Source: Cyclobacteriaceae bacterium (GTDB lineage: Bacteria > Bacteroidota > Bacteroidia > Cytophagales > Cyclobacteriaceae). Taken from it: a stretch of 64,000 nt of DNA. Positions 12,069 through 14,524 of this stretch are shown piece after piece. Under the pieces are notes generated by a model that was given only the letters and a program-made list of their open reading frames with translations, made no database searches and was not told the origin of the DNA. Location: contig JANQSI010000005.1 in the NCBI GenBank assembly GCA_028284125.1, forward strand, positions 62,001-126,000, given 5' to 3'. A program made the position numbers and the translations under genes. Position 1 is the first letter of the stretch, and every line of letters begins with the position of its first letter.

Positions 12069-12121
12069 TGAAAAGCGGGGACTTTTCACAATTGTTATCA
12101 TACATCGGTCACTTTTGACCG
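12069..12121 (-). promoter_or_regulatory. Possible expression platform of the TPP riboswitch
   Basis: Between aptamer and start codon the transcript can form two hairpins: CGGTC/GACCG (12106-12121) and GAAAAG/CTTTTC (about 12070-12086), the latter with GTCCCCG in its loop. CCCC could pair instead with the GGGG of the aptamer's 5' arm, which would give a ligand-dependent switch of the ribosome site. No T-run follows, so translational control is more likely than termination. The pairing is proposed by eye. Confidence 0.4.
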
Positions 12122-12190
12122 TCCCTACGCCGGCATTATCCGGATCAGGTTCTCGGGTATGATCTCAGCCGCTTATCGGCACCCCTGTTT
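12116..12190 (-). ncRNA. TPP (thiamin pyrophosphate) riboswitch, THI element
   Basis: Read on the minus strand, the conserved THI-box blocks appear in order: CAGGGGTGCC, GGCTGAGATC, ATACCCG, GAACCTGATCCGGATAATG and CCGGCGTAGGGA. GGCTGAGA and GATCCGGATAATGCCGG are the pyrimidine- and pyrophosphate-sensor arms of the aptamer. It sits about 75 nt upstream of the TonB receptor start codon on the same strand. High TPP should turn the receptor off. Confidence 0.96.
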
Positions 12191-12246
12191 TTTGATACAC
12201 ACAAATGTAATGATCTTGGTTTAACTAAGCACATTGGTTTGTTGTA

Positions 12247-12273
12247 GTCATACCGTGCTTGACACGGTATCTT
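12247..12273 (+). repeat. GTC-hairpin-CTT palindrome, family D
   Basis: GTC, arm ATACC, loop GTGCTTGACAC, arm GGTAT, then CTT. The inner GTG/CAC extends the stem to a perfect 8 bp (ATACCGTG/CACGGTAT). It has the same plan as the other palindromes in this window with a different stem sequence. Confidence 0.75.
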
Positions 12274-12306
12274 CCGATTCTCCCAATACAAAAAAGCTCG
12301 CCTAAC

Positions 12307-12344
12307 ATCACGTCATAGCGAACGAAGTGAAGCTATCTTGTGAT
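12307..12344 (+). repeat. GTC-hairpin-CTT palindrome, family E, with outer stem
   Basis: Core at 12312-12339: GTC, arm ATAGC, loop GAACGAAGTGAA, arm GCTAT, CTT. It is further enclosed by ATCAC/GTGAT (12307-12311 and 12340-12344), giving a two-part hairpin. No coding function. Confidence 0.7.
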
Positions 12345-12376
12345 TTAAAGGCACCTTTTCAAAAATGAGCTCTCCT

Positions 12377-12386
12377 GTCATCTCGA
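12377..12386 (+). repeat. Half of a family B palindrome at the broken end of a GIY-YIG remnant
   Basis: GTCATCTCGA is the left half of the family B element. It is joined directly to the truncated GIY-YIG remnant that starts at 12386, so the break in the gene coincides with the palindrome. Confidence 0.55.
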
Positions 12387-12456
12387 GTCCAACATAAACC
12401 TTTGACCAATTTGTAGTTGTAGTAAAGCACACGAAATAATTATGGTTTTTTCGTAT
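12386..12456 (-). pseudogene. 5' remnant of a second GIY-YIG nuclease gene
   Basis: About 70 nt and its upstream flank align with the first 24 codons of the intact GIY-YIG gene at 12774-13079. The remnant reads KNHNYFVCFTTTTNWSK then VYVG, against RNHNYFVYITTNPNRSL then VYVG in the intact gene, keeping the motif residues. Its start codon has become ATA and everything after VGL is missing, replaced by half of a family B palindrome. The upstream flank (12457-12494) including a family B palindrome is also shared, so gene and palindrome were copied together. Confidence 0.75.
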
Positions 12457-12467
12457 GAGAAATGTAG

Positions 12468-12492
12468 ATATCTCTCCTCACGTCGAGATGAC
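12468..12492 (-). repeat. Family B palindrome upstream of the GIY-YIG remnant
   Basis: On the minus strand: GTC, arm ATCTC, loop GACGTGAGGA, arm GAGAT, then ATCT instead of CTT. It is placed and sequenced nearly identically to the element before the intact GIY-YIG gene (13092-13117). Confidence 0.8.
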
Positions 12493-12535
12493 AGAAACGT
12501 CTATCCGCTTAATGCCCTTGAAGAATACCATTTAT

Positions 12536-12602
12536 TCATCCATGTCATCACTTTTTTTCATCCTGTCATCACTTTTTTCATCTATATCATCTCGTTTTTC
12601 AC
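12536..12602 (+). repeat. Tandem degenerate half-palindromes
   Basis: Three imperfect units of about 21-22 bp, each with a (T)GTCATC-like start and a T-rich tail, run up to the intact palindrome at 12606. They look like repeated 5' halves of the family B element. Similar half-copies precede the palindromes at 19459. Confidence 0.5.
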
Positions 12603-12605
12603 CCT

Positions 12606-12630
12606 GTCATCTCGACGCAGGAGAGATCTT
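12606..12630 (+). repeat. Family B palindrome
   Basis: GTC, arm ATCTC, loop GACGCAGGA, arm GAGAT, CTT, followed by TAC. Perfect 5-bp stem. Confidence 0.8.
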
Positions 12631-12693
12631 TACCTCTAATTTTCACTTCCTCAACGCTTAAAATTTCCAGCTAGATCAAAATGTCAAAGACGA

Positions 12694-12776
12694 TACATCA
12701 AGCTAACATTCATGCGGAAAAGTAATATTGACTGAACATCTATGTCATCTCGACGTAGGAGAGATCTTTACGTCTA
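12694..12776 (+). repeat. 83-bp repeat, copy 1, ending at the GIY-YIG stop codon
   Basis: TACATC, a GCTAAC block, TGCGGAAAA, about 25 variable nt, then a full family B palindrome (GTC...CTT at 12744-12768) and TACGTCTA. The same order of blocks recurs at 13127-13208. The right end runs into the stop codon (CTA at 12774-12776 on the plus strand) of the GIY-YIG gene, which suggests an insertion boundary. Confidence 0.6.
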
Positions 12777-13079
12777 GTCATCAATTACCTCATCATTTAA
12801 AAACTTCCAATCAGGATTCAATTGATCAATTAGTTTATTCTTCTTCTCTCTTCGCCATTTCTTGATTCCCTTTTCTCGTTCAATGGCATGACCTATATAA
12901 GAATGTCTTTCCCACCACACCAGATGATAGCAGTAGTATTTGCCGGCCCAACTTTTTGGATTGCCTCTGTTTTCATAGTGCTGGTTTAGTCTGGTTGCCA
13001 AATCATTGGTCAGTCCAACATAAACCAATGACCTATTTGGATTTGTTGTGATGTACACAAAATAGTTGTGGTTTCTCAT
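12774..13079 (-). CDS. GIY-YIG nuclease family protein (UPF0213/YhbQ type)
   Basis: A 101-residue single-domain endonuclease. The GIY and YIG strands are NYFVYITT and SLVYVGL, the conserved Arg is in DLATRLNQHY, and the metal-binding Glu lies in the AIEREKGIKKWRREKK helix. This is the stand-alone fold seen in UvrC and homing nucleases, cutting DNA with one tyrosine and one metal. It is bracketed by inverted copies of the family B palindrome (12744-12768 and 13092-13117), and a truncated second copy lies 320 bp away. Such small proteins are usually left unassigned in function; here the arrangement suggests it acts on, or moves with, the palindromes. That is inference. Confidence 0.88.
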   Translation of the reverse strand: MRNHNYFVYITTNPNRSLVYVGLTNDLATRLNQHYENRGNPKSWAGKYYCYHLVWWERHSYIGHAIEREKGIKKWRREKKNKLIDQLNPDWKFLNDEVIDD

Positions 13080-13091
13080 TTAAGAAATGTA

Positions 13092-13117
13092 GATATCTCT
13101 CCTCACGTCGAGATGAC
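13092..13117 (-). repeat. Family B palindrome upstream of the intact GIY-YIG gene
   Basis: On the minus strand: GTC, arm ATCTC, loop GACGTGAGGA, arm GAGAT, then ATCT. It lies 13 nt before the GIY-YIG start codon and is inverted with respect to the copy that follows the gene. Confidence 0.8.
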
Positions 13118-13126
13118 AGAAGCGAC

Positions 13127-13208
13127 TACATCCGGTTAACGTCCGTGCAGAAAATATCTCAATTGTTTCGTCTTGTCATATCGAGGCAGGAGAGATCTTT
13201 ACTTCTAC
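13127..13208 (+). repeat. 83-bp repeat, copy 2, with family B palindrome
   Basis: TACATC, GGTTAAC, GTGCAGAAAA, a variable middle, then GTC, ATATC, loop GAGGCAGGA, GAGAT, CTT (13175-13199) and TACTTCTA. One stem position is mismatched. It has the same block order as 12694-12776, showing that the repeated unit is longer than the palindrome alone. Confidence 0.6.
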
Positions 13209-13309
13209 GTTACCTCAATAGTTAAAAAACCTCGAGTCAGGCTAAGGTGGAAAAACAATTACACCGGAAGAAGCGATAGCGTAGAAACCATTATCTATTT
13301 TTTCGTCCT

Positions 13310-13334
13310 GTCATCTCGACGAAGTAGAGATCTT
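13310..13334 (+). repeat. Family B palindrome at the 3' end of the kinase gene
   Basis: GTC, arm ATCTC, loop GACGAAGTA, arm GAGAT, CTT. It ends 3 bp before the stop codon of the NadR-type kinase gene. A decayed version of the 83-bp unit precedes it (about 13250-13300). Confidence 0.8.
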
Positions 13335-13337
13335 TGA

Positions 13338-13862
13338 TTATTTAAAATGATTTTCTAAAGACTCAATTGCACTTCGTTTTCGCTCACTCTCATAACCAGA
13401 AACAACAGCATAAGGCAAGTCTCTTTCTTGCAAGTATTGATTGTACGCATCAAAAAAATGTTCCCTTAGCTTGGGATGTTCTCGTTGAGGGTCAGGTTTC
13501 CAAGGCAAATCGATATCACTGAGTAGGTAGTAGTCATATGCTCGGGATTTCAATTGCTCTTCAATCCAAGGATGGGTTTCACCATATTTATGGTAACTCC
13601 AGATTTTTATAACAATCAAGTTGGTGTCACAGAAAAGATAGCGTTCAGCGTAGTGGGCTCGCTCATCTTCCCATGCCAGTTGGCCCTTGGCTATTTCAAG
13701 TAAGTCATCTTGTTCGTAATCCCTGTCCAATCGATTCAGGTAAAACCTTGCGTACTCGGGCACCCATTCTGTTTGGTAATGCTGCGCAAGTTGTTGAGCC
13801 ATTTCACTTTTGCCAGTAGATTCAGGGCCAACAATTGCGATTCGTTTAAGATTGGGATCCAT
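13338..13862 (-). CDS. NadR-type P-loop kinase (ribosylnicotinamide kinase-like ATPase)
   Basis: A 174-residue P-loop protein. The Walker A motif GPESTGKS is at residues 12-19. It is followed by the EYARFYLNRL and DLLEIAKGQ segments, the LFCDTNLIVIKIW Walker B-like strand and the LLSDIDLPWKPDPQREHP loop typical of the C-terminal kinase domain of NadR. There is no adenylyltransferase or repressor domain. NadR-type kinases phosphorylate nicotinamide riboside; next to a PnuC-family transporter this traps imported substrate. Because a TPP-riboswitch gene lies just beyond, a thiamin-kinase role is an alternative. It starts 14 bp after the transporter gene and is co-transcribed with it. Confidence 0.85.
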   Translation of the reverse strand: MDPNLKRIAIVGPESTGKSEMAQQLAQHYQTEWVPEYARFYLNRLDRDYEQDDLLEIAKGQLAWEDERAHYAERYLFCDTNLIVIKIWSYHKYGETHPWIEEQLKSRAYDYYLLSDIDLPWKPDPQREHPKLREHFFDAYNQYLQERDLPYAVVSGYESERKRSAIESLENHFK

Positions 13863-13876
13863 TCAACTTTTGATGA

Positions 13877-14524
13877 TTAGTCAATGTCTGGAGAAGTTGG
13901 TCGGATGTTGACATCCGTTTCATGGTCTCCGTGAAACATTTTTTGTCGCCAGGAAATAAGTCCAAGAACAGCGATGTATCCAAAAACAATAAACTGAAAA
14001 CTAGTAAAAGGAAGCCCTTTGTAGATATATAGTGGGATCGAAGAGATGTTCGTGCCAATCCAAAAGTACCAATGTTGAATCTTTTTCTGAGCCATCAGGT
14101 ACATGGCTGTAATTGCAAATGAAGTTGTGAGTGCATCCCAGGCTGGAACATCGCTATCCGTGTTTTGGGAAAGCAAAATCCAAAGCAGAAAGAAAGCTGC
14201 CAGCATAATGGAAACATTGAGGATATTACCATTTTTAGTACTGCTCGTAATTGGAATTTGATTTGCACCAATTTTTGTATGCTTCCAATTGTACCAACCA
14301 TAAATACTCATCAGTAAGTAATAAGCATTGATTCCAGTGTCAGCATACAGCTTGTATTGGTAGGTAATAAAAATGTAAAGCCCCACACTGATTATTCCGA
14401 ACGGGTAAACCAGGATCTTTTCTTGTTTGCTAAACCAAACGCTGGCAATTCCAGTGATAACCGCAAGAAACTCCATTGCGGAAGTGGCTAAAAGCTGATC
14501 CAAAAAGGCATTCCACATTTCCAT
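13877..14524 (-). CDS. PnuC-family vitamin transporter (nicotinamide riboside or thiamin)
   Basis: A 215-residue membrane protein with about seven helices and PnuC hallmarks: AMEFLAVITGIASVWFSKQE, YPFGIISVGLYIF, KLYADTGINAYYLLMSIYGW with WYNWKHTK, and WYFWIGTNISSIPLYIYKGL. PnuC proteins let unphosphorylated vitamins diffuse in, to be trapped by a kinase. Subtypes carry nicotinamide riboside (PnuC), thiamin (PnuT) or riboflavin (PnuX). The kinase next door argues for PnuC; the nearby TPP-regulated receptor argues for PnuT. The subtype is not settled by what I can see. It is divergent from guaB. Confidence 0.85.
   Translation of the reverse strand: MEMWNAFLDQLLATSAMEFLAVITGIASVWFSKQEKILVYPFGIISVGLYIFITYQYKLYADTGINAYYLLMSIYGWYNWKHTKIGANQIPITSSTKNGNILNVSIMLAAFFLLWILLSQNTDSDVPAWDALTTSFAITAMYLMAQKKIQHWYFWIGTNISSIPLYIYKGLPFTSFQFIVFGYIAVLGLISWRQKMFHGDHETDVNIRPTSPDID

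Follow-up and report, generated by a model that had tools for sequence, protein, structure and literature searches.

Does the small nuclease gene of a Cyclobacteriaceae bacterium belong together with the palindromes that surround it, and do gene and palindromes travel as one? The question is raised by a 1.1-kb spacer in the stretch of DNA analysed here (64,000 nucleotides, referred to as the window), which lies between a PnuC/AAA_28 gene pair (13338-14524) and a TPP riboswitch with a TonB receptor gene. The riboswitch and the receptor gene adjoin the genes of the PnuC-type transporter and the AAA_28 kinase (12104-14524), and the locus is probably a thiamine uptake locus. In the spacer lie one intact GIY-YIG gene and a second, truncated copy of its 5' end, together with six whole palindromes and one half palindrome of a single family (Table 1). 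Our main reading, to which a probability of about 0.82 is given, is that an Ssn-type GIY-YIG nuclease and its cognate CGTC-tagged REPs form a REPtron-like unit, which was gained in this apparent thiamine-uptake spacer and partly duplicated there.

An earlier note on this DNA had described the intact gene as bracketed by inverted palindromes and accompanied by a truncated copy with the same palindrome, and these observations were reproduced. The palindromes next to the start and the stop codon of the intact gene lie in opposite orientation. Over 63 nt the remnant is 81% identical to the beginning of the intact coding sequence, and it has lost the ATG at the position of the start codon. The stretch upstream of it, including a palindrome at the same place as in the intact copy, aligns over 57 nt at 89%, and the remnant breaks off at half of another palindrome. 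The exact pattern with the stem ATCTC has three matches in the 4.55-Mb genome (23 contigs), all of them at this locus, and its reversed control has none in the same genome; other CGTC-type stems give 19 and 70 matches by two patterns.

Table 1 Features of the GIY-YIG locus (positions in the window) and, in the last line, pseudo-tRNAs of the tRNA-linked branch (positions in the loci named)
Feature	Position	Strand	Basis
TPP riboswitch, edge of the insertion site, outside the unit	12104-12196	-	Rfam RF00059
Older REP, other stem (ATACC); by eye, a similar palindrome persists at a congener's empty site	12247-12274	+	
Another REP, stem ATAGC	12312-12340	+	
Half palindrome, point where the remnant breaks off	12373-12386	+	
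Remnant, first codons of a second GIY-YIG copy	12386-12456	-	Alignment to the intact gene
REP palindrome upstream of the remnant, position as in the intact copy	12464-12494	-	
REP palindrome, same family	12606-12631	+	
REP palindrome, CGTC/TGTC-type, downstream, beside the stop codon; stem ATCTC, tail CTT	12744-12769	+	
Intact GIY-YIG nuclease gene, Ssn-like, 101 aa	12774-13079	-	PF01541; invariant alignment columns; AlphaFold
REP palindrome, imperfect stem, about 14 nt before the start codon, orientation opposite to 12744-12769	about 13094-13118	-	
REP palindrome, same family, degenerate	13175-13200	+	
REP palindrome, same family, at the 3' end of the neighbouring kinase gene	13310-13335	+	
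Pseudo-tRNAs with palindrome arm	L077: 8258-8320; L123: 7840-7860; L002: 1380-1460; L004: 1430-1450, 1860-1945		

The window protein consists of a single small GIY-YIG domain homologous to the Neisseria enzyme discussed below and matches PF01541 (3.1e-15, 56.7 bits, cut-off 22.6). It retains Y9, Y20, G22, R30, E69 and N88, which are invariant columns in the alignment of its clade (clade A, see below) and which we take to be the catalytic positions of the GIY-YIG family. In the AlphaFold model (mean pLDDT 93.9) a helix at 62-74 holds Glu69 and is followed by a turn at 74-76 and a further helix at 77-87. The closest solved relatives by sequence are the UPF0213 proteins 1zg2 and 1ywl (1zg2 3.9e-09); 1zg2 also ranks first in a fold search of the model (E 7.6e-03), in which no match fell under E 0.001. 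UPF0213 was nevertheless set aside as family name: in the protein tree the window gene lies outside the UPF0213-like sub-branch (L056, L057, L060 and L067, named by eye), and the UPF0213-like genes sampled outside the family are mostly free of palindromes, none of them with a tRNA gene within 300 bp. None of the NCBIfam models matched the window protein above its own cut-off. Among the best 80 of 562 relatives the nearest ones with a name belong to Bacteroidota, with Mucilaginibacter and Ekhidna among them. An origin from phage was considered and rejected, as no phage record matches the protein at 1e-5 and its matches to PHROG families of GIY-YIG homing endonucleases are weak (best 8.4e-04).

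The genome of the window carries five small GIY-YIG genes and one UvrC-sized match. Three of the five have CGTC-type palindromes on both sides, each with other stems (ATCTC in the window, ATGCT/ACCCT at L001, ATTGC at L005 with other stems on the left), and the remaining two (L002, L004) adjoin tRNA genes. L005 (G000:C1:43341-43635) has an internal stop and looks inactive; its ATTGC palindromes remain (19 pattern matches). For the family, 60 genomes were surveyed and 80 stretches taken from the best-first match list, leaving out UvrC and other long frames as well as a small number of copies at contig edges; with the own genome added, 83 clusters resulted. In the flank-repeat test, from which 4 of 85 loci were dropped with the gene within 160 bp of the stretch end, strong direct repeats on both sides (score at least 25) were found at 27 of the 83 sampled clusters, some of them tRNA copies, versus 8 of 640 control ORFs of the same stretches. 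Inverted repeats on both sides (score at least 14) were present at 17/83 clusters and at 14/640 controls.

In a protein tree of the sampled family genes, with 99 rows and only 99 columns, all 25 rows with similar flanks and without a tRNA gene inside 300 bp fall into one clade of 34 rows (clade A, SH-aLRT 96), which contains no tRNA-linked row. Repeat-linked and tRNA-linked labels require 14 changes on this tree versus 36.3 in shuffles, six tRNA-linked clusters that also have similar flanks being counted as tRNA-linked. A strict motif (GTC, five bases, a loop, their complement and CT) lies within 600 bp of 27/33 clade-A clusters versus 6/49 others, the fragment L069 at 9893 being left out of the clade motif counts; the six clade-A clusters without it are L056, L060, L066, L070, L092 and L099, and L245 also lacks it. 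The motif reaches 3.27 per kb near class A versus 0.18 beyond 3 kb (18-fold), and six altered tags gave 0- to 2.4-fold in class A. Since the label class A was initially assigned from the repeats, this comparison is partly circular, the clade test less so, and the following one with 80 loci chosen by protein not at all.

These loci were obtained by scanning GTDB species genomes with the clade-A alignment and picking the best 80 of 562 relatives by protein alone. Among them, 255 copies of the pattern GTC-S5-..-rc(S5)-CT were counted over the 94.2 kb that lie no more than 600 bp from the gene, and 63 over the 627 kb that lie more than 3 kb away, a 27-fold higher density near the gene; 67/80 loci have at least one copy in the near zone. 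For ten altered tags, each with a one-base tail, the near/far ratios were 0.7-2.1 at the same best 80 of 562. With the tail C and a stem starting with AT or AC, the motif is found at 77 of these 80 best loci, in eight named phyla and candidate division KSB1: Bacteroidota 56/57, Pseudomonadota 11/11, Bacillota 3/3 and one positive locus each in Chloroflexota, Thermodesulfobacteriota, Spirochaetota, Elusimicrobiota, Acidobacteriota, KSB1 and one unnamed bacterium, where single-locus phyla may be misbinned since many of the 80 loci come from metagenome bins. It is absent from the sole Verrucomicrobiota locus of this set and from Bacterium BMS3Abin03. Palindromes on both sides were seen at 59 of the best 80 of 562 loci, with the nearest pair inverted in 36 of the 59 and thus not always; CC tails occur near 25 of the 80, rhizobia included, and the rhizobial relatives show the CCA form.

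A further sample comprised the 40 best listed matches in other families of the phylum, away from contig ends. Here a REP was found at 8 of 9 ORFs with more than 100 bits for clade A and a palindrome at 3 of 17 UPF0213-like ORFs with 60-82 bits, the latter 17 having no tRNA gene within 300 bp. In a plasmid collection, 33 records have a match, and four of the five named loci examined carry such palindromes: those of Neisseria, Spirosoma, Planktothrix and, with three copies, Sinorhizobium meliloti pSymB. On the Planktothrix agardhii plasmid the REP-linked gene (L292, 3007-3291) has a type IIL restriction-modification gene on one side and the DISARM gene drmA on the other. The N. gonorrhoeae homologue is 35.9% identical to the window protein, reaches 114 bits with the clade-A profile and is surrounded by ten CGTCATTCCCGCGCAGGCGGGAATCC-type (dRS3-type) repeats within 700 bp. 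A gene of Novosphingobium aromaticivorans (L289) has no such palindrome nearby, though the species is named for CGTC-2 (PMC3733652), which counts against a strict rule. On the whole, most sampled clade-A genes have the palindromes, and the finding that would have spoken against the proposal of the earlier note, orthologues at loci free of flanking palindromes, was not obtained.

Protein and palindrome also vary together. A REP with an AT or AC stem lies within 500 bp of 113/123 clade-A ORFs (80 bits or more), part of which must be chance, as this looser motif still reaches 0.35 per kb far from the gene. In 41 of the 113 cases the five-base stem is identical to that of the nearest relative at a different locus, versus a mean of 10.6 and a maximum of 23 in 1000 shuffles, and the more similar two proteins are, the better their stems agree (Mantel r 0.20, against at most 0.08 after shuffling). 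The strongest signal for bases 4 and 5 of the stem comes from residues 74-76, the turn after Glu69; for bases 2 and 3 it is weak and located elsewhere in the protein. G75 goes with G as stem base 4 in 19/20 ORFs (other residues 4/93) and K74 with C as stem base 5 in 29/29, in the window likewise (other residues 44/84); on branches with good support only 1 and 4 of the pairs are independent, so the residue code is a prediction and shared descent is possible.

At the site itself, genomes with and without the unit can be compared. Seven loci with an AAA_28 gene were examined in congeners (L207-L213), two of which have a TPP riboswitch downstream; the remaining five have different downstream sequence and are uninformative on the site. 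In these two, G063 and G062, the AAA_28 proteins are 84% and 81% identical to that of the window, the riboswitch follows the kinase gene after about 160 and 220 bp, versus about 1,140 bp in the window, and GIY-YIG gene and array are absent from both spacers. The G063 spacer keeps one REP pair of other stems, one of which resembles by eye the ATACC palindrome of the window, and the G062 spacer a degenerate REP remnant. Gene and ATCTC palindromes were thus either added here or lost from both relatives.

REPs were counted by two patterns in the 60 family genomes, stems outside both patterns staying uncounted, and the nuclease was scored as present at 70 bits or more, broken copies included. The 32 genomes with nuclease have a median of 10.5 copies versus 2 in the 28 without (p 5e-5, uncorrected for kinship), and at least nine copies occur in 19/32 versus 4/28; the palindromes are hence not equally abundant where the nuclease is missing, apart from four exceptions with 9-25 copies (G047, G011, G021 and G050). 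Exceptions of the other kind, with nuclease and 0-2 copies, are G013, G006, G015, G023, G033, G054 and G058. G013 holds 24 near-identical matches to a Y1 transposase and no match to the two palindrome patterns.

One alternative is that a RAYT, that is a Y1/HUH transposase, moves the palindromes, which would be common REPs or bidirectional terminators, and that the GIY-YIG gene is a passenger in a REP-rich spot. It draws on Y1_Tnp genes in 48/60 family genomes and on the literature, where REPs are known partners of RAYTs (PMC2817692, PMC3733652) and Bacteroidetes have Y1 subclasses of their own (PMC6006769). However, a GTC..CT palindrome lies within 600 bp of only 1 of 30 Y1_Tnp loci examined, REP copy number is independent of Y1_Tnp (p 0.12 and 0.39), and G027, G057 and G011 have 30, 14 and 24 REP copies with no Y1_Tnp match. 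Moreover, CGTC-tagged REPs apparently have no dedicated transposase, the transposase genes flanked by them being a few fortuitous cases (PMC3733652). The RAYT was rejected as partner for want of a link to either palindromes or copy number, and this explanation is extremely improbable. Hitch-hiking by recombination is hardly more attractive: fragile, recombinogenic palindromes would gain, lose and duplicate any gene between them, and the nuclease would not need to recognise them. The direct repeats at 27/83 clusters would indeed recombine, but the control ORFs of the same stretches seldom have such flanks (8/640), and the co-variation of protein and stem is left unexplained, so that we regard it as very unlikely.

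A domesticated regulator of DNA uptake is a more serious candidate, though still an unlikely one. The host would keep the nuclease to trim incoming single strands at its sites, and neither gene nor repeats would be mobile; the Neisseria homologue belongs to the same family as the window protein, and Ssn/NTS reportedly changes natural transformation. Against this stand the patchy presence (a match of at least 70 bits in 32/60 genomes), one genome with three divergent copies that differ in stem, the empty sites of the congeners, the truncated copy in the window and a double gene copy in L098, all of which make the gene look like a mobile one. The uptake regulator and the mobile gene can, moreover, both be true.

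The nearest known system to the unit proposed here is that of Neisseria. Ssn is said to be a GIY-YIG nuclease which cuts single strands at a repeated site, reportedly described in Nature Communications in 2025 with many homologues and matched sites, and Ssn and its site NTS reportedly alter natural transformation, incoming single strands being trimmed at these sites. The N. gonorrhoeae homologue mentioned above we take to be Ssn, and the NTS presumably equals dRS3. Like Ssn, the window protein belongs to this protein family, and its gene lies amid repeats of its own cognate type, as do those of the relatives and of Neisseria. Unlike Ssn, it comes from a host of another phylum, with the stem ATCTC instead of ATTCCC and few copies instead of hundreds. 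To the Neisseria case the window adds evidence for gain, truncation and duplication at one site.

The palindromes fit the form of the CGTC-tagged REPs, (C/T)GTC-AT..stem..AT-CT. As described by Di Nocera 2013, these have a CGTC or TGTC foot, a stem that almost invariably begins with AT, a short tail and occur as dimers; they are reported from five phyla, Bacteroidetes included, and dRS3 is equated with CGTC-1 (PMC3733652). The window shares with them the unpaired terminal CGTC/TGTC, the AT-complementary start of the stem, the short unpaired tail and the head-to-head dimers, and differs in the tail, since the published tails mostly fit CCA, whereas that of the window is CTT and that of its relatives mostly CT. 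Many dispersed copies, typical of CGTC REPs, are likewise not seen for the ATCTC stem with its three exact matches at one locus. CGTC REPs were described as apparently lacking a transposase of their own (PMC3733652); here the GIY-YIG gene would take the place of the partner. The arrangement resembles REP/RAYT (TnpA-REP) in that a nuclease gene is flanked by its own tagged palindromes and co-varies with them, but the flanked gene encodes a GIY-YIG nuclease and the tag is GTC, whereas REP/RAYT combines an HUH/Y1 nuclease with the tag GTAG.

The idea of the earlier note that a GIY-YIG enzyme is the partner in a REP-like system is therefore supported by the 67/80 loci (best 80 of 562), the stem co-variation and the empty site. 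The earlier note knew no description of such a system but allowed that one could exist. A literature search with incomplete journal coverage, which does not establish absence from print, recognised no paper on either of the two branches in bacteria, and within the same scope no tie to the CGTC-REP superfamily outside Neisseria, no prediction from residue to stem, no gain plus duplication of gene with palindromes at one site and no tRNA-linked branch in bacteria was found. The Ssn-like kind as such, however, is reportedly published, and if so, the window element belongs to that kind.

The pairing of gene and palindromes, the matching of protein and stem, the presence or absence at one site and the partial duplication are visible in the compared sequences; that the enzyme does the mobilising is what we infer. 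By analogy to Ssn and to TnpA-REP, it would cut its own palindrome at the unpaired GTC/CT feet when the DNA is single-stranded or extruded, for which the lagging strand, DNA uptake or an extruded hairpin may offer the occasion. The turn K74-W75-R76 after Glu69 would read the inner stem bases. Repair or recombination of the cut ends would then copy palindrome and gene together, nearby or to a new site, a step suggested by the truncated, tandem and absent copies.

The same family has a sister branch linked to tRNA genes. Among the 83 sampled clusters, 43 have a tRNA gene within 300 bp and 41 within 100 bp, the latter versus 3/640 control ORFs, and all 58 tRNA-linked ORFs share the strand of the tRNA. 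In a tree of the 43 tRNA-linked loci the clades largely follow the tRNA isotype: Val (six loci, support 99), Asp (five, 55), Met (five, 99), Leu (five, 94) and also Glu (two loci) each form one side of a branch, while Pro, Ser, Ala, Arg, Asn, His and Thr do not. Over the whole tree the isotypes require 16 changes, with a shuffled mean of 32.5 and 11 as the least possible. A second tRNA-like stretch on the far side of the gene (score at least 20) was found at 25/41 loci and in 0/41 sets of six far windows, two of the 43 loci having no far windows. This second copy is degenerate in several loci, with a short palindrome replacing the anticodon arm (Table 1); the arm is a short GC-rich palindrome such as TCCCGA..TCGGGA, and a like small palindrome also occurs in a REP loop (L091). 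Gene and tRNA-like stretch are arranged in tandem in L077, L090 and L123. L118 is another example of a GIY-YIG gene directly beside a tRNA gene. At the 40 best listed loci from other families of the phylum, 12 ORFs have a tRNA gene no more than 300 bp away, and each of them shares the strand of that tRNA.

This branch suggests that the same small fold was used to colonise other hairpin-forming targets. A mechanistic precedent is SegB of T-even phages, a free-standing GIY-YIG enzyme which is encoded amid tRNA genes and causes the segment that carries it to be amplified in tandem (PMC13096335); SegB is a phage gene (in T6), whereas the tRNA-linked branch sits in bacterial chromosomes with clades that follow the isotype. 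We lean, with less assurance than for the locus itself, towards a wider reading in which small GIY-YIG enzymes are a mobile family homing on hairpin-forming DNA, with a CGTC-REP and a tRNA branch and with the three-residue turn setting the stem bases of the REPs. On the same reading, the second, degenerate tRNA copy means that one functional tRNA is kept.

A small nuclease gene thus travels, in all likelihood, with palindromes that its product probably recognises. If the wider reading is true, these enzymes would be the missing partners of the CGTC REPs, and the tandem units of GIY-YIG gene and tRNA would be explained as well. Repeats without a known enzyme would gain a likely partner, with a candidate enzyme for each repeat family, and together with the prediction from residue to base such candidates would make the origin and spread of CGTC REPs directly testable.
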